Assembly (NCBI RefSeq): GCF_025463825.1
Contig: NZ_JAODBG010000042.1
Span: 1-38,404 of the forward strand
DNA from: Cryobacterium sp.
Lineage (GTDB): Bacteria > Actinomycetota > Actinomycetes > Actinomycetales > Microbacteriaceae
Length of the DNA: 38,404 bases
Reading direction: 5' to 3'
The position numbers and the translations under genes are program-made. Shown in pieces: positions 6,059 to 26,470 of this stretch (position 1 is its first letter; each line of letters begins with the position of its first letter). The notes under the pieces were generated by a model that was not told the origin of the DNA, did no database searches, and was given only the letters and a program-made list of their open reading frames with translations.

Positions 6059-6366
6059 ACCTGTGGCCGCTCATCGTCTTGGCCTGCCTGGTCGGCTTCC
6101 TGACCAAGCTGCTCGGCTACCTGGTACCGAAGAAGTGGCTGACCAACCCGCGGGTGGCCCGGGTCGCCGGCAGCCTCACCATCGGGCTGCTCGCCTCACT
6201 CACCGTCGCGAACGCCGTCGCGACCGGCCAGGAGGTGGTCGTCGACTCCCGGTTGGGCGCCCTCGTCGCAGCGGCCGTCGCCCTGTGGCTGAAGGCCCCC
6301 TTCCTCGTCGTGGTCATCGTCGGGGCCGCCGCCGCGGCCGGCCTCCGCCTGCTCGGCCTGCCCTAG
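6055..6366 (+). CDS. azlD: AzlD-family branched-chain amino acid exporter, small subunit
   Basis: The 103-residue protein has three to four hydrophobic helices and starts at GTG 6055 inside the stop of azlC. Family features are LIVLACLVGFLTKLLGYLVP near the start and SLTIGLLASLTVANAVATG in the middle. It is the small partner of AzlC. Because no ATG lies at the boundary, this gene is easily missed; the 4-bp overlap and the matching membrane profile support it. Confidence 0.82.
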   Translation: MNLWPLIVLACLVGFLTKLLGYLVPKKWLTNPRVARVAGSLTIGLLASLTVANAVATGQEVVVDSRLGALVAAAVALWLKAPFLVVVIVGAAAAAGLRLLGLP

Positions 6367-6393
6367 AGCCTCGAGCCGGTTTCCGGCGATCCA

Positions 6394-6447
6394 TTGACAC
6401 CCCGGGTAGAGCCATGTCATGCTGGTGATCGTTCAAGCAGGCGTGAA
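6394..6447 (+). promoter_or_regulatory. Promoter and possible operator of the pentose-type operon
   Basis: TTGACA at 6394-6399 is followed after 18 bp by CATGCT (6418-6423), which fits the loose actinobacterial -10 pattern (A at position 2, T at position 6). Just downstream, TTCA-N8-TGAA (6432-6447) is a short inverted repeat near the expected transcription start. It is a candidate site for the SorC-type regulator encoded at the far end of the operon. The arms are only 4 bp, so the operator part is weak. Confidence 0.4.
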
Positions 6448-6474
6448 TAGATATGCAAGGGGAGTGCGGCAACG

Positions 6475-7356
6475 ATGCTGTTAGGAACCGATGTCACCCA
6501 GGTCGAGGCCTGGCGCAAGCTGCAGGAGAAACTGACCGCAGCATCCGTCACCGACCGCAGCGCCCTGCTGCACCGTCGGGCGAACGACACCCGCAGCGAC
6601 GTCGTGCGGATGATCGACCACGCCGGGCAGGGCCACATCGGCGGCGACTTCTCGGTCACCGACATCCTCACCGTGCTGTTCAACGGCGTTCTGCGGATCG
6701 ACCCGAACGATCCGCAGAAGGCCGGACGCGACCGGTTCGTGCTCAGCAAAGGACACTGCGCCGCCGCCCTGTATGCCACCCTGGCCAGCTGCGGCTACTT
6801 CTCCCCCGACGAGCTGCTCACCTTCATGGGCCCGCTCTCCGCGCTCAACGGCCACCCCAACCGCAACAAGGTACCGGGGGTCGAAACCAACACCGGCCCA
6901 CTCGGCCACGGCCTTCCCGTCGCCGTCGGCCAGGCGCTGGCCGCGAAACTCGCCGGCAACGGCGCCCGGGTCTTCGCCGTGATGGGTGACGGCGAGATGC
7001 AGGAGGGCAGCAACTGGGAGGCCCTGATGACCGGCGCCCACTACGGGCTCGACAACCTCACCGCCGTCGTCGACCGCAATCGGCTGCAACAGGGCGCCCG
7101 CACGGAGGACACCTCATCGCTGGACCCGCTGGACGAGAAGCTGCTCGCGTTCGGCTGGGAGCTGCGCATCATCGACGGCCACGACTATGAACAGCTCGCG
7201 GCAGCCTTCAAGCCCTCCAGCACCGGCAAGCCCGTCGCTGTAATCGCCAACACCACCAAGGGCAAGGGTGTGTCGTTCATCGAGGACCGCGTGGAGTGGC
7301 ACCACAAAGTGCCGTCCACGGAACAGGTAGTGCTGGCACTGGAGGAATTGGCATGA
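6475..7356 (+). CDS. Transketolase, N-terminal (thiamine diphosphate-binding) subunit
   Basis: This 293-residue protein is the first half of a split transketolase. It contains the ThDP-binding motif GDGEMQEGSNWEALMTGAHY with its metal-binding GDG, plus RFVLSKGHCAAALYA and NTGPLGHGLPVAVGQALA. Classical one-chain transketolases are about 650 residues; split forms are common in dedicated catabolic operons. GGGGAG lies ten bases before the ATG. The stop overlaps the next start (ATGA). Co-location with an FGGY kinase and an isomerase-like protein suggests that its donor is a phosphorylated ketose such as D-apulose 4-phosphate (AptA-like) rather than a general pentose-phosphate role. The substrate is inference. 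Confidence 0.9.
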   Translation: MLLGTDVTQVEAWRKLQEKLTAASVTDRSALLHRRANDTRSDVVRMIDHAGQGHIGGDFSVTDILTVLFNGVLRIDPNDPQKAGRDRFVLSKGHCAAALYATLASCGYFSPDELLTFMGPLSALNGHPNRNKVPGVETNTGPLGHGLPVAVGQALAAKLAGNGARVFAVMGDGEMQEGSNWEALMTGAHYGLDNLTAVVDRNRLQQGARTEDTSSLDPLDEKLLAFGWELRIIDGHDYEQLAAAFKPSSTGKPVAVIANTTKGKGVSFIEDRVEWHHKVPSTEQVVLALEELA

Positions 7357-8315
7357 GCACCACGACGACGACCCCCGGCCTCTACGACAACCGCACCGCC
7401 TTCGCCGACGAACTGATCCAACTCGCCCGCACCGATGACCGCATCGTGGCCGTCTGCAATGACTCCGTCGGCTCCAGCAACCTGGTCGCCTTCCGCGACG
7501 AGTTCCCCGACCGACTCATCAACGTCGGCATCGCCGAGCAGAACATGGTCGGCGTGGGCGCCGGCCTGGCCAGCGCCGGGTATATCCCCTTCGTCTGCGC
7601 CGCCGGGCCCTTCCTCACCGGCCGTTCCCTCGAGCAGGTCAAGGCCGACGTGGCCTACAGCCAGCACCCGGTTATCCTGTGCGGCATGAGTCCCGGCATG
7701 GCCTACGGAGAACTGGGCCCGACCCACCACTCCGTGGAGGACTTCTCGTGGCTCCGCGCCTTGCCGGGCCTGGACATCGTCGTTCCCGCGGACCGCCTGC
7801 AGACCCGGCAGGCCGTGCAGCAGGCCGTCGCCAGCCCCCGGCCGATGTACATCCGGGTGGGCCGGCACAAGGTACCCGACGTGTCACCGGCCGGCTCCGT
7901 GCTCGAACGCGGTCACTTCCAGACCCTCCGTGAGGGCACCGACGTCACCCTGATCGGCACCGGCACCCTGGTCTCCCGCGCCGTCGAGGCCGCCGAGCTG
8001 CTCGCCGCCGACGGCCTGAGCGTCCGGGTGCTGAACGCCGCCTACATCGCGCCACTGGATGTGGCCTCGATCGTGGCCGCCGCCGAAGAAACCGGCGCGA
8101 TCATCACTGCCGAGGAGGGCAACGTCGCCGGCGGCCTCGGTGCCGCCGTCGCCTCGGTCGTGTCGCAGCTGGGCCGGGATGCCCGGGTGCCGGTGCGCAT
8201 CCTTGGGCTGACCGAGTTCGCGCCAACCGGCAGCACCGACTTCCTGCTCGACCACTTCGGCCTCACCCCCGCCCACCTTGCTGCGGCCGCCCGGGATGCG
8301 AGGACGAATGGCTGA
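7353..8315 (+). CDS. Transketolase, C-terminal subunit
   Basis: The 320-residue partner of the preceding subunit contains the pyrimidine-binding domain (INVGIAEQNMVGVGAGLASA, with the catalytic Glu of GIAEQ) and the C-terminal transketolase domain (TLIGTGTLVSRAVEAAELLA, TAEEGNVAGGLGAAV). The start at 7353 overlaps the stop of subunit A by 4 bp. A longer in-frame start at 7296 lies entirely within subunit A and lacks a ribosome site. The two subunits form one active enzyme, as in the AptA/AptB pair. Its stop overlaps the start of the kinase gene. Confidence 0.9.
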   Translation: MSTTTTTPGLYDNRTAFADELIQLARTDDRIVAVCNDSVGSSNLVAFRDEFPDRLINVGIAEQNMVGVGAGLASAGYIPFVCAAGPFLTGRSLEQVKADVAYSQHPVILCGMSPGMAYGELGPTHHSVEDFSWLRALPGLDIVVPADRLQTRQAVQQAVASPRPMYIRVGRHKVPDVSPAGSVLERGHFQTLREGTDVTLIGTGTLVSRAVEAAELLAADGLSVRVLNAAYIAPLDVASIVAAAEETGAIITAEEGNVAGGLGAAVASVVSQLGRDARVPVRILGLTEFAPTGSTDFLLDHFGLTPAHLAAAARDARTNG

Positions 8316-9813
8316 CGCAGGGCCCGTCGTCGTCGCGATCGACCAGGGCACCAGCTCCACCAAGGTCGTCGTCGTCGACGCGGCCGGCGCGGTCGTGGCG
8401 TCCGGCACGGTACCGATCGGGCAGACCCACCCGCATCCGGGCTGGGTGCAGCAGGATGCCGAGGAGATCTTCGACAGCGTGGTGCGCGGGCTGACCGAGG
8501 CGACGGCCGGTTTCGGCGACCGGATCGCGGCGGTCGGTCTGTCCAGCCAGCGCGAGTCGGCCCTGGTCTGGGACCGGGCCACCGGGGTGGCGCTGGGCCC
8601 GGTGCTCGGCTGGCAGGACCGCCGCACCAGCGCCACCGCCGCCGACCTCACCGCCGCCGGTCACGGTGACCTCGTCCGCGAGGTGACCGGACTGCCGATC
8701 GATCCGATGTTCTCCGCCCTCAAACTCGGTTGGCTGCTCGACCAGGTCGACCCCGATCGCAGTCGCAGCCGCGCGGGTGAGATCTGCGCCGGAACCGTGG
8801 ACTCCTGGTTGCTGTTCCGGCTCACCGGCGAGCACCGCATCGAGGCCGGCAACGCCAGTCGCACCCAACTGCTCAACCTGGCCACCGTCGACTGGGACGA
8901 CCGGCTACTCGCCCTCTTCGGCGTCCCCCGGGCAACGCTGCCCACCGTCGTCGCCTCCTCCGCTCCGAGCACGCCGCTCCTCGGGGTGCCGACTCTGCCG
9001 CCCGCCACCCGGGTGCTCGCGGTGATGTGCGACTCGCACGCCGCCCTCTACGCGCACGGGGTGCGTACCCCCGGCGCCGTCAAGGTCACCTACGGCACCG
9101 GCTCGTCGGTCATGGGCCTGTCCGCGCCCGGTGCCGACGCCGCGACCGCTGGCGGGCTGGTGCGCACCATCGCGTGGCAGACGGATGCCACCGCCTACGC
9201 CTTCGAGGGCAACATCCTCTCCACCGGGGCCACCATGGTCTGGCTCGCCGGGCTGCTCGGCAGCACTCCGGCCGCCCTGTTCGCGCTGGCCGAAGCCGCC
9301 CCCGACGACCACGGGATCGACCTCGTTCCCGCGTTCGCGGGCCTCGGGGCACCGTGGTGGGATGAGAACGCGCACGCCCTGATCATCGGCCTGGGCCTCG
9401 GCAGCCGGCCAAGCGATCTGGCCAGGGCCGCGGTGGAGTCCATCCCGCTGCAGATCGAAGACGTCCTCGCCGCCGTGGACGCCGGTGGCGCGCGGATCGA
9501 CCGGATCCTGGTCGACGGCGGCCCGGCCGGGAACGACTGGCTGATGCAGCTGCAGGCAGATCTCAGTCAGCGCGACGTCGTGCGGCCCGACGTCGCCGCG
9601 CTGTCCGCCCTCGGCGTGGCCCACCTGGCTGGCGCCCAAGCCGGCATCTGGTCCGACGCCGACGTTCTCGCCCTTCCACGCCGAACCTCCACCTTCCGCC
9701 CCCGGCAGGACGCCGACCAGAGCCGCCACCGCCGGCAGCGCTGGCTCGCCGCCGTCGCCGGCGCCCGCGGCCGGCCCGCCCCCTCTGGCCAACCCGCCAC
9801 TCTTGGGTCCTGA
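8308..9813 (+). CDS. FGGY-family carbohydrate kinase
   Basis: This 501-residue protein has the FGGY fold. The N-terminal ATPase loop is VAIDQGTSSTKVVVVD, the catalytic-base region is GWQDRRTS, and the C-terminal domain has VKVTYGTGSSVMGL and RILVDGGPAGNDWLMQ. The glycerol-kinase-like GWVQQDAEEIF segment is also present. The ATG at 8308 sits inside the previous gene's end, with GAGGA just upstream; an upstream in-frame ATG (8278) is deep in that gene and less likely. In this setting the kinase probably phosphorylates the ketose made by the TIM-barrel isomerase encoded downstream. In the D-apiose transketolase route that step is apulose to apulose 4-phosphate. The tail after about residue 470 is low-complexity and Arg/Ala/Pro rich. 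Confidence 0.87.
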   Translation: MADAGPVVVAIDQGTSSTKVVVVDAAGAVVASGTVPIGQTHPHPGWVQQDAEEIFDSVVRGLTEATAGFGDRIAAVGLSSQRESALVWDRATGVALGPVLGWQDRRTSATAADLTAAGHGDLVREVTGLPIDPMFSALKLGWLLDQVDPDRSRSRAGEICAGTVDSWLLFRLTGEHRIEAGNASRTQLLNLATVDWDDRLLALFGVPRATLPTVVASSAPSTPLLGVPTLPPATRVLAVMCDSHAALYAHGVRTPGAVKVTYGTGSSVMGLSAPGADAATAGGLVRTIAWQTDATAYAFEGNILSTGATMVWLAGLLGSTPAALFALAEAAPDDHGIDLVPAFAGLGAPWWDENAHALIIGLGLGSRPSDLARAAVESIPLQIEDVLAAVDAGGARIDRILVDGGPAGNDWLMQLQADLSQRDVVRPDVAALSALGVAHLAGAQAGIWSDADVLALPRRTSTFRPRQDADQSRHRRQRWLAAVAGARGRPAPSGQPATLGS

Positions 9814-9876
9814 CCCGGCACCACCGGCACCACCCGCTCGTCCCGCACCACATCTGCAAAGGAGCAGTACCCCGTC

Positions 9877-10524
9877 ATGGCACGAGAACCACAACGGCCC
9901 CGTCGGGTCAAACCCTGGATGATCGGCACTCTTGCGGTCCTGGTGGTGCTCGTCGCGGCCGCCATGAGCGTCAAGGTCGTGAGTATCGAAGACGCCGAGG
10001 CCGCGGCATCCGGCGGCTTCGACCCGGCCAGCTATGCGGCCGACCGCTTCGAATCCGAGATCGCACCGCAGATCGAGGAGGACGCCATCGACCTGCCGAC
10101 CCTGCTCGGCGACCTGGCCGCCGGCGCCGATGAGGCGGACTTCGGCAACACCTCGGGATCGAGCAGCGCCTACAGCTTCCCGGTGACCTTCACCGGAGTC
10201 GCCGGCACCCCGGCCGGCGCCATCCTGCCCGTCACGGTCGAGGGGGTGCCCGCCGACGTCACGGTGCAGGTCCAGATCGGGCCGGCGCTGAACGGCACGG
10301 CCATCCGCGACGTCACCGGCACCGTGAGCTTCAACGAATTCACCAACCAGCTCGAGTACCAGACCGTGGCCACCGAACTCAACAACCTGGTGCGCACCGA
10401 GGTACTCGGCGACGTCGACCCGGCCGCCCTCGCCGGCAAGACCGTGACCGTGACCGGGGCGTACACCCGGGTCAACCCGGCCCTGGTCTCGGTGGTCCCG
10501 GTGAGCTTCGAGGTGCAGGAGTGA
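9877..10524 (+). CDS. DUF2291 family membrane-anchored protein
   Basis: The 215-residue protein has a basic N-terminus, then a single hydrophobic segment (WMIGTLAVLVVLVAAAMSVKVV, about residues 13-34, an uncleaved anchor or signal), and an extracytoplasmic beta-rich domain. DUF2291 landmarks include FDPASYAADRFESEIAPQI, the central Gly/Ser stretch, IRDVTGTVSFNEFTNQLEYQ, and the closing VSVVPVSFEVQE. The family is typically encoded beside ribose-type ABC importers and has no established function. Here it directly precedes the ATPase gene, with a GTGA overlap. An accessory role in uptake at the cell surface is inferred from position only. Confidence 0.8.
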   Translation: MAREPQRPRRVKPWMIGTLAVLVVLVAAAMSVKVVSIEDAEAAASGGFDPASYAADRFESEIAPQIEEDAIDLPTLLGDLAAGADEADFGNTSGSSSAYSFPVTFTGVAGTPAGAILPVTVEGVPADVTVQVQIGPALNGTAIRDVTGTVSFNEFTNQLEYQTVATELNNLVRTEVLGDVDPAALAGKTVTVTGAYTRVNPALVSVVPVSFEVQE

Positions 10525-12086
10525 CCATCCCCGGCACCCGAGCCCAGCCGTCCACCGATGTGGTGATGCGCGCCATCGGCATCGCCAAGAGCTACGGCGC
10601 CACCCAGGCCCTGAAAGGCGTGGACTTCGAGATCCGCCGCGGCACCGTCACCGTGCTCTTCGGCGAGAACGGTGCCGGCAAGTCCACCCTGATGAAGATC
10701 CTCAGCGGCGTCGAATCGCCCACCTCCGGCCTGCTCGAACTCGACGGCGAGGAAGTGGTGCTGCGCAACACCGTGGACGCCAGCGCACGCGGGATCGCGA
10801 TCATCCACCAGGAACTGAGCCTCTGCGCGAACCTGAGTGTGCGGGACAACATCTTCATGGGCCGGGAACTCGTGCGCGGCGGCATCGTCGTGAACGAACG
10901 CCAGGAGACGGCCGAGACGCTCACCCTGCTGGAGCGGCTGGAAGAGTCCCTGAACCCCAAGACCCTCGTCGCCGACCTGCGCCTCGGCCAACAGCAGGTG
11001 GTGGAGATCGCGCGGGCGCTGGCCGGTGAGGCCAGGGTGCTGATCATGGACGAGCCGACCTCCGCCCTCAGCGGCAGCGAGGTCGAGGTGCTGTTCCGCG
11101 TGATTCACGAACTCACCGCGGCCGGGGTGGCCATCGTGTACATCTCGCACCACCTCGAGGAGGCTCTGGAAATCGCGGACCATGCCGTGGTCTTCCGGGA
11201 CGGCGCCCTCGTTGCCACCGGCGAGCGCGCCGACATCGACCTCGACTGGGTGATCTCCAACATGGTCGGCCGCAGCGCCGACGACCTCTCCCCCGACCTG
11301 CTCACCGAGTTCGGCGACGTCGTGCTGTCGCTTCGCGACATCACCGTCGCCGACCCCACCAACCCCGCCCGGTTGTCGGTGGACGGCTTCAGCCTCGACG
11401 TGCGGGCCGGCGAACTCGTCTGCCTCTACGGGCTGATGGGTGCCGGCCGCACCGAACTGCTCGAGGCGCTGGCCGGCCGGGTACCGGTGCAGAGCGGCAC
11501 GGTGACCCTCAAGGGCCGGCTGATCACCCGGGAGAGCATCGCCCAGCGGATCGACCTGGGGCTCGCCCTCGTGCCGGAGGACCGGCAGCGGGACGGCCTG
11601 GTGCAGACCATGTCGGTCGGTGAGAACGTGTCGCTGGCCGGGTTGCTCTCCTTCGTGAAGGGGCTCTGGATCTCCACGCCGGGCGAGCGCACCGCCGTGC
11701 AGCAGGAGATCTCGGACGTTCGGGTGAAAACCGCCGGTCCCGCCGCCGCGATCACCTCACTCTCCGGCGGCAACCAGCAGAAGGTCGTGATCGGCAAGGT
11801 GCTGCTCACCGCCCCCGAGGTGCTGCTGCTGGACGAACCCACCCGCGGCATCGACGTCGGTGCGAAGGCGGAGATCTTCGCCCTGATGGCCCGCGAGGCC
11901 GAGCGCGGCCTCGGTGTGCTGTTCGCCACCTCCGAGGTGGGCGAGGCGCTCAACGCGGCCAACCGCGTGATCGTGATGTCCAAGGGACGAATCGTGCGGG
12001 AGTTCGACCCCCGCACCGCCACCCGCGAAGAACTGATGATCGCCTCCGGCGAGTCCACCGATGAAGAAACTGGAGCAGGCGCATGA
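10521..12086 (+). CDS. Ribose-type sugar ABC transporter, duplicated ATPase (RbsA-like)
   Basis: The 521-residue protein has two ATP-binding domains, the normal layout for RbsA/MglA/XylG. The first carries Walker A GENGAGKST, the signature-like LRLGQQQVVEIARAL, and Walker B VLIMDEPTSAL. The second has a degenerate Walker A (YGLMGAGRTELLEAL, as usual in this family), signature LSGGNQQKVVIGK, and Walker B VLLLDEPTRGIDVGAK. It starts at GTG overlapping the DUF2291 stop and ends overlapping the permease start, so the three genes are translationally coupled. It powers import of the operon's sugar with the permease and binding protein that follow. Confidence 0.93.
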   Translation: MTIPGTRAQPSTDVVMRAIGIAKSYGATQALKGVDFEIRRGTVTVLFGENGAGKSTLMKILSGVESPTSGLLELDGEEVVLRNTVDASARGIAIIHQELSLCANLSVRDNIFMGRELVRGGIVVNERQETAETLTLLERLEESLNPKTLVADLRLGQQQVVEIARALAGEARVLIMDEPTSALSGSEVEVLFRVIHELTAAGVAIVYISHHLEEALEIADHAVVFRDGALVATGERADIDLDWVISNMVGRSADDLSPDLLTEFGDVVLSLRDITVADPTNPARLSVDGFSLDVRAGELVCLYGLMGAGRTELLEALAGRVPVQSGTVTLKGRLITRESIAQRIDLGLALVPEDRQRDGLVQTMSVGENVSLAGLLSFVKGLWISTPGERTAVQQEISDVRVKTAGPAAAITSLSGGNQQKVVIGKVLLTAPEVLLLDEPTRGIDVGAKAEIFALMAREAERGLGVLFATSEVGEALNAANRVIVMSKGRIVREFDPRTATREELMIASGESTDEETGAGA

Positions 12087-13219
12087 CCGTCACCCAACCC
12101 CGGCCGGCGCCCGCCGGCGACCAGCAGCCGCCCCGCGCACCCCGCCGGTTCAGCATCCGCGGCAACGACGTCGACCTCGGCTCCATCCTGCTCGAAGGCC
12201 GCGCGTTCATCGCCCTGATCGTGCTGATCATCATCTTCTCGGCGCTCAGCGACTCATTCCTGTCGGTGAACAACATGATCACGATGACCAAGCACGTCGC
12301 GTACAACGCGATCCTCGCGATCGGGATGTTGTTCGTCATCCTCAAGGGCGGCATCGACCTGTCGATCGGTTCAACGGTCGGCCTGTCCGGCGTGGTCGCC
12401 GGTGTGCTGCTGCAGGGTTTGCAGCTCAACTCCCTCGACGTAGTGCTCTACCCGCAGGTCTGGGTGGTCGTGCTCTGCTCCCTCACCGTCGGCACCCTGG
12501 TCGGCTTCATCAACGGCACCCTGGTCACCCGGTTCGGCGTCGCCCCATTCATCGCCACCCTGGGCATGTTGTACGTCGCCAGGGGCGCGGCCCTGCTGAT
12601 CTCCAACGGTTCGACCTACCCGAAGCTCGGCGGTGACCCCGAACTCGGCAACACCGGCTTCAACCTCATCGGCGGCGGCCGCATCCTCGGGGTGCCCACC
12701 GCGATCTGGATCATGGTGGTCTTCGCACTGATCGCGGTGTTCGTGCTACGCAAAACCCCGTTCGGCCGCTGGGTGTACGCCACCGGCGGAAACGAACGCG
12801 CCGCAGAGCTGGCCGGCGTGCCGGTGCGGAAGGTGAAACTGCGGGTCTACATGATCAGCGGATTCTGCGCGGCGACGACCGGCCTGATCATCTCCTCCGA
12901 GCTCACCAGCGCCGCCCCGCAACTGGGCGAGACCTTCGAGCTCAACGCGATCGCCGCCTGCGTCATCGGCGGCGCCGCCCTCACCGGCGGCCGTGGCAAT
13001 GTGCGCGGCGTGCTCGTCGGCGCCTTTGTCATCGGCTTCCTCAGCGACGGGCTGGTGATCGTGGGAGTGTCCACCTTCTGGCAGATCACGATCAAGGGCG
13101 CCGTCATCATCCTGGCCGTCATGCTCGACCAGGCACAGCAGCGCATCAAGCGATCCAAGAACGCGGCCCTGGCCGCGGCGAACAAGTCTTCCGGCCCGCC
13201 CGCCTCACCCGCGGCCTGA
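12083..13219 (+). CDS. Ribose-type sugar ABC transporter, permease (RbsC-like)
   Basis: This 378-residue membrane protein belongs to the BPD_transp_2 family. Characteristic stretches are LKGGIDLSIGSTVGLSGVVA near helix 3, GFINGTLVTRFGVAPFIATL, TPFGRWVYATGGNERAAELA (the cytoplasmic ATPase-contact loop), and AIAACVIGGAALTGGRGNVR. N- and C-terminal tails are hydrophilic and Pro/Ala-rich. The start overlaps the ATPase stop (ATGA). The binding-protein gene follows after 67 bp. Confidence 0.92.
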   Translation: MTVTQPRPAPAGDQQPPRAPRRFSIRGNDVDLGSILLEGRAFIALIVLIIIFSALSDSFLSVNNMITMTKHVAYNAILAIGMLFVILKGGIDLSIGSTVGLSGVVAGVLLQGLQLNSLDVVLYPQVWVVVLCSLTVGTLVGFINGTLVTRFGVAPFIATLGMLYVARGAALLISNGSTYPKLGGDPELGNTGFNLIGGGRILGVPTAIWIMVVFALIAVFVLRKTPFGRWVYATGGNERAAELAGVPVRKVKLRVYMISGFCAATTGLIISSELTSAAPQLGETFELNAIAACVIGGAALTGGRGNVRGVLVGAFVIGFLSDGLVIVGVSTFWQITIKGAVIILAVMLDQAQQRIKRSKNAALAAANKSSGPPASPAA

Positions 13220-13262
13220 CCGGATACCGCGCCCCGGCGACGACGCCGGGAACGCACCATGA

Positions 13263-14276
<1,014 letters not shown>

Positions 14277-14283
14277 CCTCCCG

Positions 14284-14316
14284 GCGCCGGCCGCGGCGGA
14301 TGTCCGCGGCCGGCGC
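14284..14316 (+). terminator. Strong GC hairpin after the binding-protein gene
   Basis: A perfect 13-bp inverted repeat (left arm GCGCCGGCCGCGG, right arm 14304-14316) with a 7-base loop starts seven bases after the binding-protein stop. It is followed by TTCTCTCC rather than a true U-tract. In ABC operons such hairpins often protect the binding-protein mRNA or terminate part of the transcripts, and either role fits. Confidence 0.6.
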
Positions 14317-14350
14317 TTCTCTCCACCACCACGACAAGAAAGCAGAGCTC

Positions 14351-15334
14351 ATGCCCCACGAACAGGTCTACGGCGCCGGTATCTGGCACTTCGCCACCTA
14401 TGTCGACCGTTACGCCACCGACGGCTATGGCGAACCGCGCAGCATCCTCGACGCGATCGACCTGGCCGGCAAGGTTCGCGACCTCTCGGTCGTCGACCTC
14501 AACTACCCGTTCTTCGGCGGTGACATCAGCAACGCCCAGGTCGACGAAGCCCTCGAGCGCAACAAGCTCAAGGTCATCGGCATCACTCCGGAAATCTATA
14601 CCCGGCAGTTCATGAAAGGCTCCTTCACCAACCCCGACCCCGGCGTGCGCGAGGTCGCCCACGACCTGATCACGGATGCCGTCGGCGTCGTCCGGCACTT
14701 CGGCGCCGACTACGTCAAGCTCTGGCCCGGCCAGGATGGCTGGGACTATCCCTTCCAGGTGGATCACGGCACACTCTGGAAGGCGTCCCTCGACGGCGTC
14801 GGCCGGCTCGCCAGCGAGAACCCCGACGTGAAATTCGTGATCGAGTACAAGCCCCGCGAACCGCGCGTGCACATGAGCTTCGACTCCATGCCCCGCACCC
14901 TGCTCGGCATCGAGAAGATCGGCCTGCCCAACGTGGGTATCCTGCTCGACTTCGGCCACGCGCTGTTCGGCGGCGAATCCCCCGCCGATTCCGCCCAGCT
15001 CGCCATCGACTACAACCGGTTGTTCGGCATGGACGTGAACGACAACTTCCGCCAGTGGGACGACGACCTGGTCGCCGGCACCGTGCATCCGATCGAACTG
15101 TTCGAGTTCTTCTACACCTTGGAGAAGAACAACTGGCACGGCGTCTGGCAGCTCGACCAGTTCCCGTTCCGGGAGGACAGCGTGGACGCGGCGGACATGG
15201 CCATCGACTTCCTCAAGGCCGTGCAGCGGGGCCTCGGCAAGCTCGACGTGCAGGCCCTGCAGGAGGCCCAGGCGAACCATGACGCGATGGGGGCGCTGCG
15301 GCTCGCGCAACAGGCCCTGTTCACGTCCTACTAA
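14351..15334 (+). CDS. Xylose isomerase-like TIM-barrel sugar isomerase/epimerase
   Basis: The 327-residue protein begins [22 protein letters not shown]-endonuclease-2-type TIM-barrel features are clear: [16 protein letters not shown], the metal Glu in [14 protein letters not shown], the metal Asp/His in [12 protein letters not shown], and a later acidic ligand region near [11 protein letters not shown]. The KLWPGQDG and EYKPREPR motifs resemble rhamnose/tagatose-epimerase-like ketose isomerases. In the known D-apiose transketolase pathway a protein of this superfamily isomerises apiose to apulose, and that is the role I infer. The upstream in-frame Met at 14300 falls inside the hairpin and is rejected. 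The gene ends in tandem in-frame stops (TAATAA). Confidence 0.85.
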
Positions 15335-15347
15335 TAAGCTGGCCGGT

Positions 15348-16331
15348 ATGTCCAGCGAATTGTCGGCGGTGCCGAGCCGGTTGCCCACCGACCGGCTGGG
15401 GCTGCTCACCAAGATCGCCCGGATGTACCACGAACAGGGCCTGCGCCAACCGGAGATCGCGGAACGGTTGAACATCTCCCAGTCGCGGGTGTCCCGGTTC
15501 CTCAAGGAAGCGGTCAACCTCGGCGTGGTGCGCACCATCGTGGTGCCACCACCCGGGGTGCACCCGGATCTGGAAGACCGGGTACGCGACCGGTTCGGCC
15601 TGAGCGACGTTGTCGTCGCCGACCAGCTCGGTGACGACGACAGTGCCATCCTGCGCGCCCTCGGCGGAGCCGGGGCGGCGTACCTGGAAACCTCGCTCAC
15701 CGGCCAGGACCGGGTCGGTATCTCGTCCTGGTCGTCCACCCTGCTCGCCACGGTCGATTCGATGGTGCCCCGCCCCGCGCGGGCGGCGGACTCGGTGGTG
15801 CAGGTCATCGGCGGGGTCGGCAACCCGACCGTTCAAGTGCAGGCCACCCACCTCACCGACCGGCTCGCCCGGATCACCGGGGCCACCCCGCGGTTCGTCG
15901 CCGCGCCCGGCGTCGTGGCCACTGCCGAGCTGCGCGCTGCGTTGTTGCAGGATGAATACATCGGCCAGGTCGCCGCCGAATGGTCCACCCTCACCGTGCT
16001 GCTGGTGGGCATCGGCAGCCTGCAGCCCTCCCCGTTACTGAAGGACTCCGGCAACGTCGTCTCGCAGAGCGAGATGGAACTTCTCCGCACCAGCGGCGCC
16101 GTCGGTGACGTGTGCCTGCGCTTCTTCGACGCGCACGGAGCCCTGGTGGAGTCGTCGCTGAACGACCGGGTGCTCGGCATCAGCGTCGACGACCTGCGCC
16201 GAGTGCCACGCAAGGTGGGCATCGCCGGCGGCGCCCGCAAACACGAGGCCATCCGGGCCGCTGCCACCGGCGGCTGGATCGACGTTCTGATCACCGACGT
16301 CGCCACCGCCGAATACCTCATCACAGCCTGA
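15348..16331 (+). CDS. SorC/DeoR-type sugar-binding transcriptional regulator
   Basis: The 327-residue protein has an N-terminal helix-turn-helix (ARMYHEQGLRQPEIAERLNI and SQSRVSRFLKEA). A SorC-type sugar-binding C-terminal domain follows: DRVGISSWSSTLLATVDSM, VQVIGGVGN, and LLVGIGSLQPSPLL; the late signature GIAGGARKHEAIRAA is also present. These regulators usually bind a phosphorylated sugar produced by the operon. The ATG at 15348 follows the isomerase stop by 13 bp, so the gene is transcribed with the operon it likely controls. Candidate sites are the TTCA-N8-TGAA repeat upstream of the first transketolase gene and the TTGTCAG cluster at 16.8 kb. Confidence 0.88.
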   Translation: MSSELSAVPSRLPTDRLGLLTKIARMYHEQGLRQPEIAERLNISQSRVSRFLKEAVNLGVVRTIVVPPPGVHPDLEDRVRDRFGLSDVVVADQLGDDDSAILRALGGAGAAYLETSLTGQDRVGISSWSSTLLATVDSMVPRPARAADSVVQVIGGVGNPTVQVQATHLTDRLARITGATPRFVAAPGVVATAELRAALLQDEYIGQVAAEWSTLTVLLVGIGSLQPSPLLKDSGNVVSQSEMELLRTSGAVGDVCLRFFDAHGALVESSLNDRVLGISVDDLRRVPRKVGIAGGARKHEAIRAAATGGWIDVLITDVATAEYLITA

Positions 16332-16334
16332 GCG

Positions 16335-16763
16335 TCAGTCGTTGACGACGCCCTTGCGCAGGATGAAGCAGCCGTAGGGCCGCGCGTCCAGGGTGTGCAC
16401 CACGGCGTAGGCGTACTGGGCCCGGTGATAGAAGTCCAGGCGCGGCACGATCCCGAATTCGAGTTCGGGCCAGCCCGCACGGGCGACGGCGAGCACCTGT
16501 GCCTGTGAGGGGCCCAGAATGGCGGGGTCGTCGTCGACCACCATCCGCTCCAGCGGTCGATCCACGTAGCGGTCCAGCGGGAAGACGCTCAGGATGGCGG
16601 CCGCCGCGTCGGTCACGCTCGCGGGTCCCAGCCGCACGACCGGCCGGCCGGAGGCGGCTGCCGGATAGTTGCGGTCGACGAGGAACAGCTCGTCGCCGTG
16701 ACCCATCTCATCCAGCAGCTTGAGCAGCTCCCCGCTGAGCAGGGGATTGATTCCAATCAACAT
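16335..16763 (-). CDS. RbsD/FucU-family sugar mutarotase
   Basis: The 142-residue protein starts [20 protein letters not shown] and then [16 protein letters not shown], the catalytic-His opening of the RbsD/FucU family that interconverts sugar anomers after uptake. The C-terminal signature is [19 protein letters not shown] and [13 protein letters not shown], which is closer to FucU than to E. coli RbsD. The ATG at 16763 is chosen because homology starts there; an upstream extension to 16997 would cover the dehydrogenase promoter. It converges on the SorC-type gene (3 bp between stops) and diverges from the dehydrogenase gene, so it probably belongs to the same regulon. Confidence 0.85.
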
Positions 16764-16772
16764 GCCCCACAG

Positions 16773-16865
16773 CTTGTCAGAGCGCAGAATTCCCGACAAG
16801 AGGTGCCCTGACAGTACGTGGCTGATGGCCCCGGGAACCCCGGCGGAAATGCTTGGATTGTCAGA
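16773..16865. promoter_or_regulatory. Cluster of TTGTCAG-type sites in the rbsD/dehydrogenase divergent promoter region
   Basis: TTGTCAGA occurs twice as a direct repeat (16774-16781 and 16858-16865), CTGACAG once inverted (16808-16814), and CTTGTC/GACAAG forms an inverted pair (16773-16778, 16795-16800). All four lie in the 130-bp gap between two divergent genes. Repeated half sites in such a gap are typical of a regulator that controls both directions; the neighbouring SorC-type protein is the obvious candidate. No footprint or comparison supports this yet. Confidence 0.4.
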
Positions 16866-16893
16866 TTCCGTTTCTGCTACCCCAGGGAGAACC

Positions 16894-17937
16894 ATGCTCA
16901 CCGTCAACGCCTTCGCGGCTCCCTCCGCCACCGCGCCGCTCGTCAAGACCACCATCGAGCGACGGGACCTCGGCCCGAACGATGTGCTGATCGCCATCGC
17001 CTACTCCGGCATCTGCCACTCCGACATCCACACCGTGCGTGGCGAATGGGGCCCGGTGCAGTACCCCCTGGTCGTCGGCCACGAGATCGTGGGGACCGTT
17101 GCCGAGGTCGGCTCGGCCGTGAGCCTGCACCAGGTGGGCGACCGGGTCGGTGTGGGCTGCATGGTCAACTCCTGCCGCGAGTGCGAGAACTGCCTCGCCG
17201 GCGAGGAGCAGTACTGCCTCAAGGGCAACACCGGCACCTACGCCGCGGTCGACCTGGACGGCACCATCACGCAGGGCGGCTATTCGACTCACGTCGTGGT
17301 CGTCGAAGACTTCGTGCTGAAGGTTCCGGAGAGCATCCCGTTCGAGGCCGCAGCTCCCCTGCTCTGCGCCGGCATCACCACCTACTCGCCGCTGGCGCAC
17401 TGGAACGCCGGCCCGGGCAAGAAGGTGGCCGTCGTCGGTATGGGCGGCCTCGGCCACATGGCCGTGAAGATCGCCCACGCCATGGGTGCTGAGGTGACCG
17501 TCCTCTCGCAGAGCCTGAGCAAGCAGGAAGACGGCCTGCGCCTGGGCGCCGACTCCTACTACGCCACGAGCGACCCGGCCACCTTCGACAAGCTGGCCAA
17601 CACGTTCGATCTCATCATCAACTCGGTCAGCGCCCTGATCGACATCAACGCCTATCTGGGGCTACTGCGCCTGGACGGCACCCTCGTGAGCGTCGGCGCC
17701 CCCGCCGAGCCGCTCCCGGTGCAAGTGTTCAGCCTGTTCGGCAACCGCCGCTCATTCGCCGGTTCCGGCATCGGCAGCATCCGCGAGACCCAGGAGATGC
17801 TGGACTTCTGCGCCGAGCACGGCATCGCCCCCGAGACCGAGCTGGTCGCGGCCGACTACATCAACGAAGCCTACGAGCGGGTGCTGGCGTCGGATGTGCG
17901 CTACCGCTTCGTGATCGATGTGGCCACCCTGGCCTGA
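16894..17937 (+). CDS. Zinc-dependent alcohol/aldehyde dehydrogenase (CAD/YahK-type)
   Basis: The 347-residue medium-chain dehydrogenase has [15 protein letters not shown] (catalytic Cys), [14 protein letters not shown] (second zinc ligand region), and the structural-zinc Cys cluster in [17 protein letters not shown]. The Rossmann motif [20 protein letters not shown] is followed by Ser-Gln-Ser, suggesting NADP(H) preference as in CAD/YahK enzymes. AGGGAG is well placed before the ATG. It diverges from the mutarotase and closes the sugar region before a strong terminator. It may reduce or oxidise an aldose or aldehyde related to the operon's substrate, or be a general aldehyde reductase. Confidence 0.88.
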
Positions 17938-17949
17938 GGGTAGAGACCA

Positions 17950-17982
17950 GGCGACCGCGCGGGGTGTCCCCGCGCGGTCGCC
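17950..17982 (+). terminator. Strong hairpin terminator after the dehydrogenase
   Basis: A perfect 15-bp stem (left arm GGCGACCGCGCGGGG) with a 3-base loop TGT lies 12 bp after the stop. The trailing sequence CGTTGTGTT is only partly T-rich, as is common in high-GC actinobacteria. It ends the sugar catabolic region. Confidence 0.75.
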
Positions 17983-18433: not shown

Positions 18434-19345
18434 TCACCACACTGCCCGCACGGCCGTGGCGTAGGCCCGGTAGCCGGCCGCGGTCGGGTGGAACGCTTCG
18501 ATCCCGGTCGAATTGATCCAGGGGTCGGCGCTGCCGATGCCGTGTCCCGCGAACGCCGCGGTGACGTCGACGTAACGGATGTCGATGCCCGACTGGGCGA
18601 GCTGCACCGCCACACCCTCGATGGTGTCGTTCAGCGCGGCAATCGCAGCGTTGAGTTGCACGATGGTCGCGTAGTTCGGGTGCGTCTGCGGCGGAGTCTC
18701 GAACAGGAACGGATAGCCGGTCACCAGGATGGCGGCGCCGGGAATCGTGGAGGCAACGGCCGTGAGAGTGGTGGTCAGCCGCACGGCCAGTTCGCTGGGT
18801 AGCTCCGGCGCCGGCGGTGTCAGGAGGGCGTAGACGCCGGCCAGGCCCGCCTGGCATTCCGGCGACTCGAACGACACGGAGCAGGCCGCGGCGACGGCGG
18901 GACCGTTCAGGTCGTTGGCGCCGATGGTCCCCGTGACCACGTCGACCTTCCTGGTCTTCCTGATCGACGGAATCTGGACGCTCAGCACGTCGGCCGTTGT
19001 CGCCCCGCTGCAGCTGGGGTCGGCGACCAACCTGACGTGTTTCAGGTCGTCCAGAACCTCCGGATAGCTGGAGGCATTCTGCAGGCAGGCGTTCTCGTAC
19101 GGCAGGGCGCCCTGCCCGGCCGCGTACGAGTCGCCCAGGGCGACGTACGTGACGACACGGCTCCGGTTCTGGTCGGACTGGTCGTGGCCGGACTGCGCCT
19201 GACCGGCCTGCGCCTGACCAGACTGTGCAGCGACGCCGACTGGCGCTGCTTGGGCGCTTCCCGCGACGAGGACTCCGGAGAACAGGACGGACATTGCCAA
19301 GGCGATGGCCCCTCGCGCGGCGACGCGGCTGGGTAAGCGAATCAT
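18434..19345 (-). CDS. Secreted SGNH/GDSL-family hydrolase (esterase/lipase)
   Basis: The 303-residue protein has a Sec signal peptide (positively charged start, hydrophobic core, cleavage near AQA around residue 33). A Gln/Gly-rich linker with repeated GQAQ-type units follows. The SGNH blocks are in order: GDSYAAGQG (nucleophile Ser), GATTADVL, TGTIGANDL (block III Asn), and EAFHPTAAGYRAYA (catalytic Asp/His block; here Glu replaces the usual Asp two before the His, while an Asp precedes in VDVTAAF). Cysteines near residues 87 and 112 and two further on suggest disulfides, as in secreted Streptomyces-type lipases. The substrate is unknown. Confidence 0.85.
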   Translation of the reverse strand: MIRLPSRVAARGAIALAMSVLFSGVLVAGSAQAAPVGVAAQSGQAQAGQAQSGHDQSDQNRSRVVTYVALGDSYAAGQGALPYENACLQNASSYPEVLDDLKHVRLVADPSCSGATTADVLSVQIPSIRKTRKVDVVTGTIGANDLNGPAVAAACSVSFESPECQAGLAGVYALLTPPAPELPSELAVRLTTTLTAVASTIPGAAILVTGYPFLFETPPQTHPNYATIVQLNAAIAALNDTIEGVAVQLAQSGIDIRYVDVTAAFAGHGIGSADPWINSTGIEAFHPTAAGYRAYATAVRAVW

Positions 19346-19408
19346 TGCGCCAAAGCACTCCCGAAGGCGCCGGCCGGACAGGGCAGCCGCCTCCGGGCGT
19401 CGGTCAGG

Positions 19409-20083
19409 TCAGGAGCTCGTGGAGATGACCGCACTCATGGTGTGCGTCTCCGCCGGTGCCAGGACGATCGCGTCGCTGTGCACATTGGCGGTCTACACGC
19501 ACAGCATCCCGGTCCACTCCGCGTCACCGAAGTCGGGCATGGCCGCGGCTTTCTCGGTCCAGGGATTCCAGAGCACCCGCGGGACACTCAGGTAGGTGTG
19601 GAACCCCTCCGCGAAGCTCACCGGTCCGGCACCGACGTTCCGCACCCGCAGGGAGAGGCCCAGCCGGGCGCCGACCGTCACCGTGTAGTCGGCCTCGAAG
19701 CGGTGCGGCCAGGCGGAGGACCGGGTCTGTTCGGTGTCGGTGAGACGGAAGACCAGGACGATGTCGTCACCGCACTCGTGTGCCTCGGCCAGCTGCCAGT
19801 CGGCCAGCCGGGCGAAGCCGTGCGCGGGCAGAGTGGGATCCTCTGCGAGCGGCCCGAACCACGGGAAGCAGAGCGGCACCCCGCCGCGCAGGGGCCGGCC
19901 GGCAGCGTATTCGCTGAAGGCGCTCATCCACAACACCGGCGGCTGTCCCGCCGGTGCATAACCGGTGACGTGCGCGCCCTGCAGATAGACCTCGGCCGCG
20001 CCGGCCGCACCGTCGACCCGGACCACGGGCAGGCCGCCCCGCCGGTACCGATCGTGACAGATGCGGGCAGCGCCGGGGCGCAC
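19409..20083 (-). pseudogene. Broken D-hexose-6-phosphate mutarotase (aldose 1-epimerase family)
   Basis: The sequence follows a YeaD-type epimerase: GGLPVVRVDG, VYLQGAHVTGYAP, and RGGVPLCFPWFGPLAEDP with catalytic-side HGFARLADWQL. Three lesions are visible. Its start is fused to the end of the upstream gluconokinase and shifted by one base near 20040 (LPASVTIGTG is in the other frame). About 80 residues are missing between FHTYLSV and VLWNPWTEKAA. The conserved Glu codon after MLCV is TAG (19493-19495); the frame continues normally beyond it as TANVHSDAIVLAPAETHTM to a stop at 19409. It probably served sugar-phosphate use together with manD and gntK. Confidence 0.82.
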
Positions 20084-20573
20084 AGCCGGGCCACCGCTTC
20101 GGTGACGATGTCCAGCACGGGCTGGGCGATGTCGACCGCGAAGCCCGGCTCGTCGTCGTGCAGTTCTTCCAGGGTCGCCAACTGCGGCTGGAGCAGGGCC
20201 GGCGGCATGAAGTGTTCACTGCGACCCTCGAGCCGGTTCCCGAGCACCTTGAGCGAGCCGGAGAGGTGCACGAACTGCACGTTCGGCGGATCGCGTCACG
20301 ATAGACCCGCTTGAGCGCTGAGCAGGCGATGACCAGTCCGGTGCCGGCGGCTCCCGCCTCAGCGAGCGCCGCGCCCACCAGGGCGAGCCACGGCCATCTG
20401 TCGTCATCCGTCAGCGGCACTCCGCCGGCCATCTTGACGATGTTCGCCTGCGGGTGCAGCCCCTCGGCGTCGAGGAACGGGATCTCGAGGGAGGAGGCCA
20501 GGAGGGCGCCGATGGTGCTCTTGCCCGAGCCCGATACGCCCATGACCACGACCTGCGCGGCTGGTGTACTCAC
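20084..20573 (-). pseudogene. gntK: Frameshifted gluconokinase
   Basis: Gluconate kinase makes 6-phosphogluconate. The N-terminal half is intact: VVVMGVSGSGKST (P-loop), FLDAEGLHPQANIVKMAGG, PLTDDDRWPWL, and ACSALKRVYRDAIR. After this the frame shifts near 20284. The rest continues in another frame as VQFVHLSGSLKVLGNRLEGR, SEHFMPPALLQPQLATLEEL and PGFAVDIAQPV, and runs without its own stop into the mutarotase remnant. The GTG start overlaps the manD stop (GTGA), so it was the second gene of a manD operon. A single-base loss explains the break, but the fusion at the 3' end is a separate lesion. Confidence 0.85.
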
Positions 20574-21808
20574 CCGTCGTGCACCGTTCCATCGGCCAGC
20601 CGGTTGTAGGGCAGGTAGGCGGTGGCATACGGGTACTTGCCCGCTTCGTCCACGTTCAGCTCCACTCCGAGACCGGGCTTGTTGCCCGGGTGCAACATGC
20701 CGTTGTTCCAGCTGTAGGACTGCCCGAAGACGGCGTTGGTCTTGTCGCCGTGCTTCATGTACTCCTGGATACCGAAGTTGTGAATCGCCATGCCGAGGTG
20801 CATGGCGGCGGCCATGCCCACCGGGGAGATGTCGGTCGGCCCGTGCATGCCGGACTTGATCTGGTACTGGCCGGCGAACTCGAGGATCTTCTTGAGGTGG
20901 GTGATGCCACCGGTGTGGGTGACGGCGCTGCGGACGTAGTCGATGAGCTGCTCGCGGATGCTCTGCTGGTAGTCCCAGATGGAGTTGAAGATCTCACCGA
21001 TCGCCAGCGGCGTCGTGGTGTGCCGGCGCACCAGGCGCAGCGCCTCCTGGTTCTCGGCCGGTGTGCAGTCTTCGAGCCAGAACAGGTCGTAGGGCTCGAG
21101 CGACTTGCCGAGCGTGGCCGCCTGGATGGGCGTCATCCGGTGGTGGCCGTCGTGCAGCAGCGGCAGCTCGGGGCCGAACTCGTTGCGCACGGCCTCGAAG
21201 ACGGTGGGCACGTGGCGCAGGTAGGACCGGGTGTCCCAGTCTTCGTCGGCGGGCAGCGCGCCGCGCTGGGCGGGCTCGTGGTCGTAGCGCACGCCCTCGT
21301 TGCCGGGCAGGCCCTTGTTGGACGCGATGCCGTAGATGGACTTGAGGCCGGGAACGCCCGTCTGCACGCGGATGGCCTTGAAACCCTGCTCCAGGTGCGA
21401 GTTGACGCTGTCGAACACCTCGGTGAGGGACTTGCCGGATGCGTGGCCGTAGGCGAGCAGGCCGGTGCGCGATGCGCCGCCGAGCAACTGGTAGAGCGGC
21501 ATGCCGGCGGCCTTGGCCTTGATGTCCCAGAGGGCCACGTCCACAGCGGAGATCGCGGCCATGGTGACCGGGCCGCGGCGCCAATAGGCGCTGCGGTACA
21601 GGAACTGCCAGGTGTCCTCGATGTTGTGGGCGTCGCGGCCGAGCAGCAGCGGCACCACGTGCTCGGTGAGGTAGGCCACCACGGACAGCTCGCGGCCGTT
21701 CAGGGTGGCGTCGCCGAGGCCGGTGAGGCCGTCGTCGGTGGTGAGCTTGAGAGTGATGAAGTTGCGGTCGGGGCTGGTGACGATTACTTCAGCCTTGTCG
21801 ATCTTCAC
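20570..21808 (-). CDS. manD: D-mannonate dehydratase, enolase superfamily (ManD/RspA)
   Basis: The 412-residue enzyme is complete, of normal length for ManD, and dehydrates D-mannonate to 2-keto-3-deoxygluconate in hexuronate breakdown. Family motifs are [60 protein letters not shown], the metal/catalytic region [23 protein letters not shown], and AIGEIFNS. The GTG start has AGAAGGAAG upstream. Its operon is damaged on both sides: a symporter stump lies 51 bp upstream, and broken gntK and mutarotase lie downstream. The deletion upstream probably removed the operon promoter, so expression of this intact gene is doubtful. Some members of this family have very low activity. Confidence 0.92.
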
Positions 21809-21859
21809 GAGTGCTTCCTTCTGTTGTAACTGCGGAGTAAGTGGTTGGTTGCGGGCGGG

Positions 21860-22063
21860 TCAGTCGACCGGCGGCGGGGTGTTGCCCGGCCGGTACGCCG
21901 GAAGGACGCTGTCGAGAGCGACGGGTCGATGGGCGGCAGGACGGTTTCGCTCCGGCGCGGCGCGCGGTGATCTCGGCGACGATGATGGCGTGACGCTTGT
22001 CGGTCAGCGGGTAGAAGATCATCACGGCGACCGCGAGCACTGAGGCCACGACCGGGATCAGAA
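21860..22063 (-). pseudogene. C-terminal stump of a GPH/MelB-type sugar:cation symporter
   Basis: Only the last helix and tail survive: IPVVASVLAVAVMIFYPLTD and KRHAIIVAEITARRA, the typical end of glycoside-pentoside-hexuronide symporters. After ARRA the frame shifts; a tail reading VALDSVLPAYRPGNTPPPVD then runs to a TGA at 21860. The N-terminal 11 or so helices are gone. At about 22060 the stump meets, head to head, the stump of a GH3 gene on the other strand. It was the first gene of the manD operon, so it would have carried hexuronate or a related sugar. Confidence 0.75.
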
Positions 22064-22622
22064 GGACACCCAGGGCAACCTGCCGCTCCGCCCGGAGACG
22101 CACCGGCGCATCCGCCTCGACGCAGTGTCGGGGGCGGCCGACTTCACCGGCACCGACCCGAACTCCTACCTGCAGATCGCGAAGGACGAGCTCGAGCAGG
22201 CCGGCTTCGAGGTGCACGTGTTCAAGGACGCTGCCCAACGGAAGGCAGAGGGTGAGGAGCACGTCTACTTCCACACCGTGATGTCGGAGGAGGCCAACGG
22301 CAGCTTCACCGACAAGTACGACGCGGCCATCATGTTCGCAAACGTGGCGGGCTTCGCCCAGGAGGCCAGCGTGCGCATCAAGTGGTCAACCCCGATGGCG
22401 GCGGAGATCCCCTGGTACGTCACGGAGGTTCCCACCGTGTACGTGTCGGTGAACCAGCCCACCCACCTCATCGACGTGCCCACGGTCAAGACCGTGGTTC
22501 ACGCGCACAACCCGAGCCGCGAGGCGATCCACGCCGCGGTGCAGAAGATCATCGGTGCCTCGGAGTTCCAGGGCACCTTCAACGACAATGTCTGGTGCGA
22601 CACCTGGGGCACCCGCCTCTAG
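22061..22622 (+). pseudogene. C-terminal stump of a glycoside hydrolase family 3 enzyme
   Basis: The open frame reads KDTQGNLPLRPETHRRIRLD, SGAADFTGTDPNSYLQIAKD, and later VPTVYVSVNQPTHLIDVPTV, ending FQGTFNDNVWCDTWGTRL. This is the C-terminal domain of NagZ-like/beta-hexosaminidase-type GH3 proteins; the N-terminal TIM barrel with the catalytic Asp is absent. The frame opens only at 22044, just after a TGA. The break coincides with the symporter stump on the opposite strand. A GTG at 22125 could still start a 165-residue non-catalytic peptide. Confidence 0.75.
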
Positions 22623-22672
22623 GCGCCTCTTTCCCACCCCCTCCGCTCCCCCGCACGTCACCATCCGCACGA

Positions 22673-22740
22673 CAACTGTTGCCCGTGCGGACAATTGCGC
22701 CCGGCACACCGGGACCAATTGTCCGCATGGGGACCAGTTG
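22673..22740. repeat. 68-bp nested palindromic repeat, copy A
   Basis: The element starts CAACTGTTGCCC and ends GGACCAGTTG, so its termini are inverted CAACTG/CAGTTG. Inside it GCGGACAATTG (22687-22697) and CAATTGTCCGC (22716-22726) form a perfect 11-bp inverted repeat around the core CCCGGCACACCGG. It lies in the gap between the GH3 stump and the TIM-barrel gene, 29 bp before the latter's start. Two further copies of the same length occur in the window. Confidence 0.85.
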
Positions 22741-22769
22741 CTCCGCACTACTGAAGGAGTACGACCCTC

Positions 22770-23629
22770 ATGGCCACAATCGGCGTTCAAGCAATGATGC
22801 TCAAGGACAACTTCGCCGCGGACGGGGCGTTTGAAACGCTCCGCGCGGTGAGTAAGATCGGCTACCACGCCGTCGAAATCTCGCAAATTCCGATGACCCC
22901 CGCCAACGTCGCGGAGCTGGGTCGGGCGCGCACCGAGCTGGGCATGGACATCGCCTCCCTGTCGGCCTCCCTGACGGTGACCCCGGGCATCCCAGGCGAA
23001 TCCCTCACCACCGACTTCGACAAGATCGTCAACGACGCCAAGCCCCTGGATGCCTCCATGGTGCGCATCGGCATGCTGCCGTTTTCCGCGATGGGCTCCC
23101 TGGATGCCGTGCTCGGATTCTGCGACGCCACCAACGAGATGGCCGCTCGCCTGCAGGGCGAGGGCATCGGGCTGTATTACCACAACCACCACATCGAGTT
23201 CGCGAAGTACGACGGGAAGCTGCTGCTCGACATCATCGCCGAGCGCGCCCGCTCATGGGCGTGGAGATCGACGTGCACTGGGTGCAGCGCGGCGGCCTGG
23301 ACCCCGTCACCACGCTGAAGAAGTACGGCGAGCGGGTGTCGATGGTGCACCTCAAGGACTACCGCATCGGGCAGATCCCGCCCGCCGCGTTCGAGGCGCT
23401 CAACGCCGGCGACCACGCCGGATTCATGACCGCGTTCACGGGCGTGGTGCAGTTCGCCGAGGTCGGCGAGGGCAACCTCGACTTCACGTCGATCATCGCG
23501 GCCAGCGAGGAGATCGGCGCGCGCTACCTGCTCGTCGAGCAGGACGAGCACTACGGCCGGACGCCGCTGGAGTGTCTGCAGACCTCCTACGACAACCTCG
23601 TCGCGCTCGGTTTCACGCACCTCTGTTAA
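22770..23629 (+). pseudogene. Frameshifted sugar phosphate isomerase/epimerase (TIM barrel)
   Basis: The reconstructed protein of about 286 residues is an AP-endonuclease-2-type TIM-barrel isomerase. The first part has IGVQAMMLKDNF, GYHAVEISQIPMTPANVAEL and IGLYYHNHHIEFAKYDGKLL. The second part continues in another frame with MGVEIDVHWVQRGGLDP (metal Asp/His), SMVHLKDYRIGQIPP, and ARYLLVEQDEHYGRTPLECL (metal Glu). The switch is at 23248-23250, a CCC run where one more C would restore ERAPLMGVEID. It could be a true frameshift or a sequencing error. AAGGAG precedes the ATG. The gene is bracketed by two direct copies of the 68-bp repeat, with only 29 and 4 bp of spacing. Confidence 0.82.
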
Positions 23630-23633
23630 CCGG

Positions 23634-23701
23634 CAACTGTTGCCGGTGCGGACAATTGCGCCCGGCACACCGGCAACAGTTGTCCGCTCGGGGAACAGTT
23701 G
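23634..23701. repeat. 68-bp nested palindromic repeat, copy B
   Basis: This is the same length and orientation as copy A, starting 4 bp after the TIM-barrel stop. The arms CAACTGTTGCCGGTG (23634-23648) and CACCGGCAACAGTTG are a perfect 15-bp inverted pair. A second overlapping pair is GCGGACAATTG with CAGTTGTCCGC (one mismatch). It therefore has alternative foldings. It could act as a bidirectional terminator, since the next gene converges on it. Confidence 0.85.
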
Positions 23702-23709
23702 TGGGCGGG

Positions 23710-26456: not shown

Positions 26457-26470
26457 GAATGCGAGGCGTC

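Follow-up and report, generated by a model that had tools for sequence, protein, structure and literature searches.

Which sugar is served by an actinobacterial operon that joins a ribose-type importer to a split transketolase, and which of the genes around it belong to the same system? The window considered here, the whole 38,404-nucleotide stretch of contig NZ_JAODBG010000042.1 (positions 1 to 38,404) of a Cryobacterium sp. (assembly GCF_025463825.1; 3.53 Mb, 96.23% complete), carries on its plus strand a nine-gene operon (6475-16331) in the order tktA, tktB, FGGY kinase, DUF2291 gene, rbsA, rbsC, rbsB, isomerase and sorC. An earlier note, made from the letters of this DNA, had proposed that these genes run the D-apiose transketolase route. 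Apiose is a branched sugar of plant cell walls, and the route, reportedly described by Carter and co-workers in 2018, uses the isomerase ApsI, an apulose kinase and the transketolase subunits AptA and AptB. We conclude that the operon most probably serves the import and catabolism of D-apiose by a pathway of this transketolase type, gained as a 10.5 kb island (we put the probability near 0.87); the pathway is already known in other bacteria, and the window is an actinobacterial member of it. Gene content, homology, conserved motifs, linkage and an empty site were observed; each reaction, ligand and regulator effector we infer.

The argument starts from the TIM-barrel isomerase (14300-15334, plus strand). 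Among solved chains 3ktc_A comes closest (457.5 bits; the runner-up scores 61.3), and the letters of 3KTC are 100% identical to a Pectobacterium atrosepticum SCRI1043 protein (P0121) that a protein search returned under the UniRef name 'D-apiose isomerase'. Over 327 columns the window protein is 61.5% identical to P0121 and retains the signature motifs; it falls within the ApsI family, and models of xylose and rhamnose isomerases match it far more weakly. In a quick tree (99 sequences thinned to 46; SH-aLRT support only, with long-branch warnings), the named ApsI groups with Pantoea, Klebsiella and some actinobacterial sequences (97), the window isomerase sits in a sister clade (99) with Rhizobiales, Devosia, Sphingomonas, Pelagibacteraceae and other actinobacterial sequences, and Streptomyces-type proteins fall outside both. 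Across 44 sequences of three sets that bracket the window protein (the long-branched L098 and the Duffyella outgroup were excluded from position counts), 107 positions are invariant. By orthology the window isomerase is ApsI, an assignment made at the level of sequence. A Pantoea plasmid also encodes an isomerase 66% identical to it (L084:11977-12969), with no kinase or transketolase annotated nearby.

The company kept by this isomerase in other genomes points to the same pathway. Among the best 80 of 329 relatives, kept as loci, 64 have tktA, tktB and the FGGY kinase with the isomerase, and all nine operon genes occur in three further actinobacterial genomes (L106, L107, L108). Three places are held in duplicate (L051/L088, L009/L104, L015/L105); they count once each in this set and in the 83 loci formed by adding L084-L086, and some count twice in the 93-locus and 36-match counts. 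At most about 10 kb from apsI, 13 of the 83 loci carry genes for PF13204 apiosidase-like proteins, some of them loci of the window isomerase's own clade: ten loci carry members of one cluster (L028, 66.7 bits), five of another (L006, 340.5 bits; L009, 338 bits) and two carry both, the Pfam scan having covered these three and the other genes being assigned by similarity to them. In a control drawn from the window's class, PF13204 scored above its cut-off in 2 of 98 genomes. In a Rhizobium locus the kinase gene has tpiA as its neighbour, in keeping with a need to regenerate the acceptor, and a Streptomyces module described below is embedded in genes for pectin breakdown, which likewise speaks for apiose. 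Since the nine genes are found together again in L106-L108, and since dN/dS is 0.07-0.31 for ten island genes compared with the copy in a same-genus genome (G416), the gene set goes beyond chance. The proposal of a D-apiose route thus stands, on the identity of the isomerase, this linkage, the apiosidase-like genes in related loci and, as set out below, the nearest relative of the binding protein and the gene content of an Escherichia coli cluster (bar the isomerase).

The FGGY kinase (8308-9813, plus strand; PF00370/PF02782 in a scan of 8278-9813) is a probable apulose kinase. Against the GlpK model TIGR01311 it reaches 418.9 bits, below the NCBIfam cut-off of 590.35, and so falls outside GlpK. 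It carries a DSHAA motif shared with the seven other module kinases compared, including E. coli AplK, and replaced by DQQAA in the glycerol kinase of the genome itself (L111); the glycerol kinase side of this comparison is an incomplete L111, with L113 cut and the FGGY kinases L114-L117 of the genome not picked up. The motif is not specific to apiose, since some of the seven come from loci without ApsI. The transketolase is split into an AptA-type N-terminal subunit (6475-7356, plus strand; PF00456, 140.4 bits; best solved relative 6yak, a split-chain transketolase) and an AptB-type C-terminal subunit (7353-8315, plus strand; PF02779 and PF02780 in a scan of 7296-8315), a two-subunit enzyme distinct from the genome's single full-length transketolase (L118). 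Its halves are 46% and 38% identical to E. coli AptA and AptB and 55-57% identical to Rhizobium and Agrobacterium pairs from loci without ApsI, and a tree (85 pairs thinned to 36) sets the E. coli pair apart; being closer to these isomerase-less pairs, the window pair alone is not diagnostic.

The importer comprises an RbsA-type ATPase (10521-12086, with a GTG start at 10521, gene starts having been picked by homology and frame), an RbsC-type permease (12083-13219; PF02653, 156 bits) and a binding protein (RbsB, 13287-14276), all on the plus strand; the ATPase and the permease are 46-47% and 52-56% identical, respectively, to their counterparts in the apiose loci of E. coli and Rhizobium etli. 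The binding protein, a predicted D-apiose binder, is close to proteins of the apiose importer type: of the solved proteins, R. etli RHE_PF00037, encoded next to oiaX of the apiose/apionate route, is its closest relative, and it is 60% identical to RHE_RS26605, encoded beside oiaX. The structure 5IBQ reportedly contains apiose. The DUF2291 protein (9877-10524, plus strand) had been regarded in the earlier note as an extension of the pathway, a view we abandon: all 36 matches to it (35 places) adjoin an rbsA gene, it is present in the importer loci of E. coli and R. etli, and importer operons of this kind usually include it. The search missed distant proteins of E. coli, Rahnella, Sodalis and Caballeronia, which the records annotate beside importer genes. 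By sequence its match to solved structures is weak (2f4i, E 0.17), while a structure model gives an N-terminal helix and an OB fold, with TM0957 of Thermotoga as best match; from this model it would be a probable extracytoplasmic partner of the importer. The tie to RbsA in every match seen offers a handle on a family whose name, DUF2291, is absent from the literature searched.

How the operon relates to known systems can be judged from four comparisons. With the pathway of Carter and co-workers it shares the isomerase orthologue, the FGGY kinase, the two-subunit transketolase and the RbsABC-type importer; it differs in being actinobacterial and in having a FucU-type mutarotase on its island. 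The apiose cluster of E. coli SE15 (ECSF_RS02670-02715), whose carriers grow on apiose according to one report (PMC13001218), has SorC, FGGY kinase, RbsB, DUF2291, RbsA, RbsC and split transketolase as in the window, but two SDR oxidoreductases in place of ApsI. The apiose/apionate locus on p42f of R. etli CFN 42 holds the closest importer (RbsB 60%, RbsC 56%, RbsA 47% and, over part of its length, DUF2291 35%), yet follows an oxidative route by oiaX, with no ApsI, transketolase or FGGY kinase among the features listed there. A module on a plasmid of Streptomyces sp. NBC_00184 (L085) has in a row an isomerase (60%), transketolase halves (70% and 64%), an FGGY kinase (50%) and a SorC-like protein (50%); unlike the window it has no importer gene annotated adjacent, and pectinesterase, GH28 and GH95 genes lie around it. 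The literature searched gave nothing on an actinobacterial apiose operon beyond a methionine-salvage review, and no mention of apulose.

The operon came in on an island of 10.5 kb, the word already used in the earlier note. In three same-genus genomes without the isomerase (G424, G399, G417), the matches to window positions 6366 and 16886 are only 107 bp apart, so that the window has 6367-16885 (10,519 bp) in addition; in G416 the operon occupies the same position. Counting the host itself, the isomerase occurs in 2 of 37 same-genus genomes searched and in 9 of 394 genomes of the class. The best candidate for terminal repeats at the island ends is a 15 bp match (E 0.066), which we do not count. 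The zinc alcohol dehydrogenase just beyond (16894-17937, plus strand; PF08240/PF00107), formerly included in the system, is better taken as a resident flank gene outside it, because it borders the empty site in the three isomerase-less genomes and is carried by 28 of 59 other relatives at E <= 1e-120; as a pathway member it was rejected. The empty site in this way shows which genes belong, and the window brings the apiose transketolase route into Actinomycetota in the form of a self-contained operon.

The island also holds fucU (16763 to 16335, minus strand), which is convergent with sorC, 3 bp apart, and divergent from the dehydrogenase gene. Its product matches Pfam RbsD_FucU (PF05025, 103.4 bits in a scan of 16335-16997) and stays below the cut-offs of the L-fucose mutarotase model NF011949 (79.3 bits, cut-off 141) and of the ribose pyranase model (19.4 bits, cut-off 93). 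Both same-genus carriers of the island also have fucU, which stays with the operon but varies in position: in G416 it lies on the far side of the dehydrogenase. Near other apsI genes it is found in 3 of the 83 loci (L004, L066, L074), and it is present in the same-genus copy L103. FucU as a strict marker of apiose use was rejected on that count and because a match also turns up in six same-genus genomes that lack the isomerase, in G414 beside another TIM-barrel isomerase and an FGGY kinase. The enzyme may act on apiose as a mutarotase, and a mutarotase extending the route, as previously suggested, is possible. A broader proposal, which would make this protein a mutarotase for D-apiose, with a specificity new to its family, and would see in DUF2291 a constant, extracytoplasmic OB-fold component of apiose- and ribose-type CUT2 importers, translated in step with RbsA, is tentative and in our estimate falls clearly short of even odds.

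The predicted scheme would then be as follows. The binding protein, RbsC and RbsA, with DUF2291 as extracytoplasmic partner, would import D-apiose, and the FucU-type enzyme would possibly speed the exchange of its ring forms; ApsI would convert apiose to apulose, the FGGY kinase apulose to apulose 4-phosphate, and the two-part transketolase would transfer two carbons to glyceraldehyde 3-phosphate to yield dihydroxyacetone phosphate and xylulose 5-phosphate, the three reactions reportedly described by Carter and co-workers. The SorC-family regulator (15348-16331, plus strand; PF04198, 202 bits in a scan of 15279-16331), a gene type present in the E. coli cluster as well, would switch the operon, probably sensing a pathway sugar phosphate. 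The genes that the note named are all there with open frames, those of the operon on one strand. The 4-bp overlaps it described hold at three of the eight junctions (tktA/tktB, DUF2291/rbsA, rbsA/rbsC) and fail at the other five, namely an 8-bp overlap of tktB with the FGGY kinase gene and gaps of 63, 67, 23 and 13 bp. Upstream of tktA, window 6367-6480 is similar, judged by eye, in the same-genus copy L103 (for example ATCCATTGACAC and GCGTGAATAGATATGCAA), and this stretch is likely the promoter and operator region; a consensus scan of 6300-6500 returned no promoter or terminator.

Several observations weigh against D-apiose as the sugar of this operon. The comparators for kinase and transketolase include neither AptA/AptB nor an apulose kinase with demonstrated activity; 10 of the 80 loci lack the kinase and both transketolase halves, some being short contigs, but not L026, L029, L033, L036 and L044; the host genome, in an assembly 96% complete, has no PF13204 apiosidase; and the E. 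coli cluster lacks ApsI, with a binding protein 39.5% identical to the window's and the transketolase identities given above. The long branch and 14 fixed differences that separate the window isomerase clade from the named ApsI clade could mean that this clade shifted substrate and that the operon is mainly for a close analogue such as a different branched or rare pentose or some derivative, the more so as three of the differences (28, 101, 214) lie directly beside motif positions and the kinase and transketolase are also seen in loci that have dehydrogenases instead of ApsI. We nevertheless consider this unlikely: none of the 14 falls on an invariant motif position, in the loci seen, the bracketing named ApsI and Streptomyces-type sets have kinase and transketolase partners of the same sort, and apiosidase-like genes occur in the window's own clade.

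Uptake and catabolism of ribose, or of a plain pentose, is less probable still. An rbs-type ribose operon has a ribokinase and a ribose pyranase with its importer; here there is no PfkB-type ribokinase domain among the ten genes, the mutarotase is below both cut-offs already given, and the isomerase is of the ApsI family. What speaks for ribose is the importer: the title of structure 4ry0 reads ribose transporter protein, the Thermotoga ribose-binding protein, from the same organism as the TM0957 match of DUF2291, ranks second among the solved relatives of the binding protein, and the binding pocket is nearly that of ribose-binding proteins, with 9 of their 10 tabled pocket residues (PMC2630998); pocket residues do not separate apiose from ribose uptake. 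Least probable of all, and hardly credible to us, is a silent or decaying insertion; carriage by two same-genus genomes of 37 would suit it, but every frame is open, dN/dS is low in the range given against the second copy, and the tktA upstream region looks similar in both copies. We accordingly keep to D-apiose import and catabolism as the preferred reading.

Beyond Cryobacterium, isomerases about 73-77% identical to the window's, with the kinase and both transketolase halves, are found in Pelagibacteraceae and other alphaproteobacterial single-cell and metagenome-assembled genomes (L047, L054, L059, L061, L063, L065, L066, L069, L071, L074, L075, L076, L081), which from their names we take to be ocean cells; the literature searched holds nothing on apiose use in SAR11. 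Plasmids of Rahnella and Sodalis combine importer, DUF2291, SorC, split transketolase and kinase with an L-fucose-isomerase-like gene in place of apsI (L090:13809-15227, L091:13806-15224), whose product is possibly another apiose isomerase. Rhizobium and Agrobacterium plasmids (L099, L101, L102) have kinase, split transketolase, SorC and importer with SDR dehydrogenases and no ApsI, and perhaps serve a reduced sugar such as apiitol.

Nucleoside-hydrolase-like genes lie near apsI in ten loci (L003:5635-6579, L005, L007, L008, L018, L020, L025, L042, L046, L048), with PF01156 in the three scanned and the rest assigned by similarity; in L086 (13029-14483) the gene is of the Sde182 type (PF07632). 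Only some keep the DxD-type motif. Since the apiose found in nature is a furanoside, all of these genes could encode another type of apiosidase. Further along the window, 18434-24753, with aldose-epimerase-like and mandelate-racemase-type genes, is not matched at the nucleotide level next to window 18411 in L123-L125; matches there resume at 24754 (L124, L125) or 29879 (L123), and this segment is probably a further insertion. A tRNA-Arg (tct) gene lies at 28171-28256 on the minus strand, within a region with paired CoA-transferase genes at 26459-27808.

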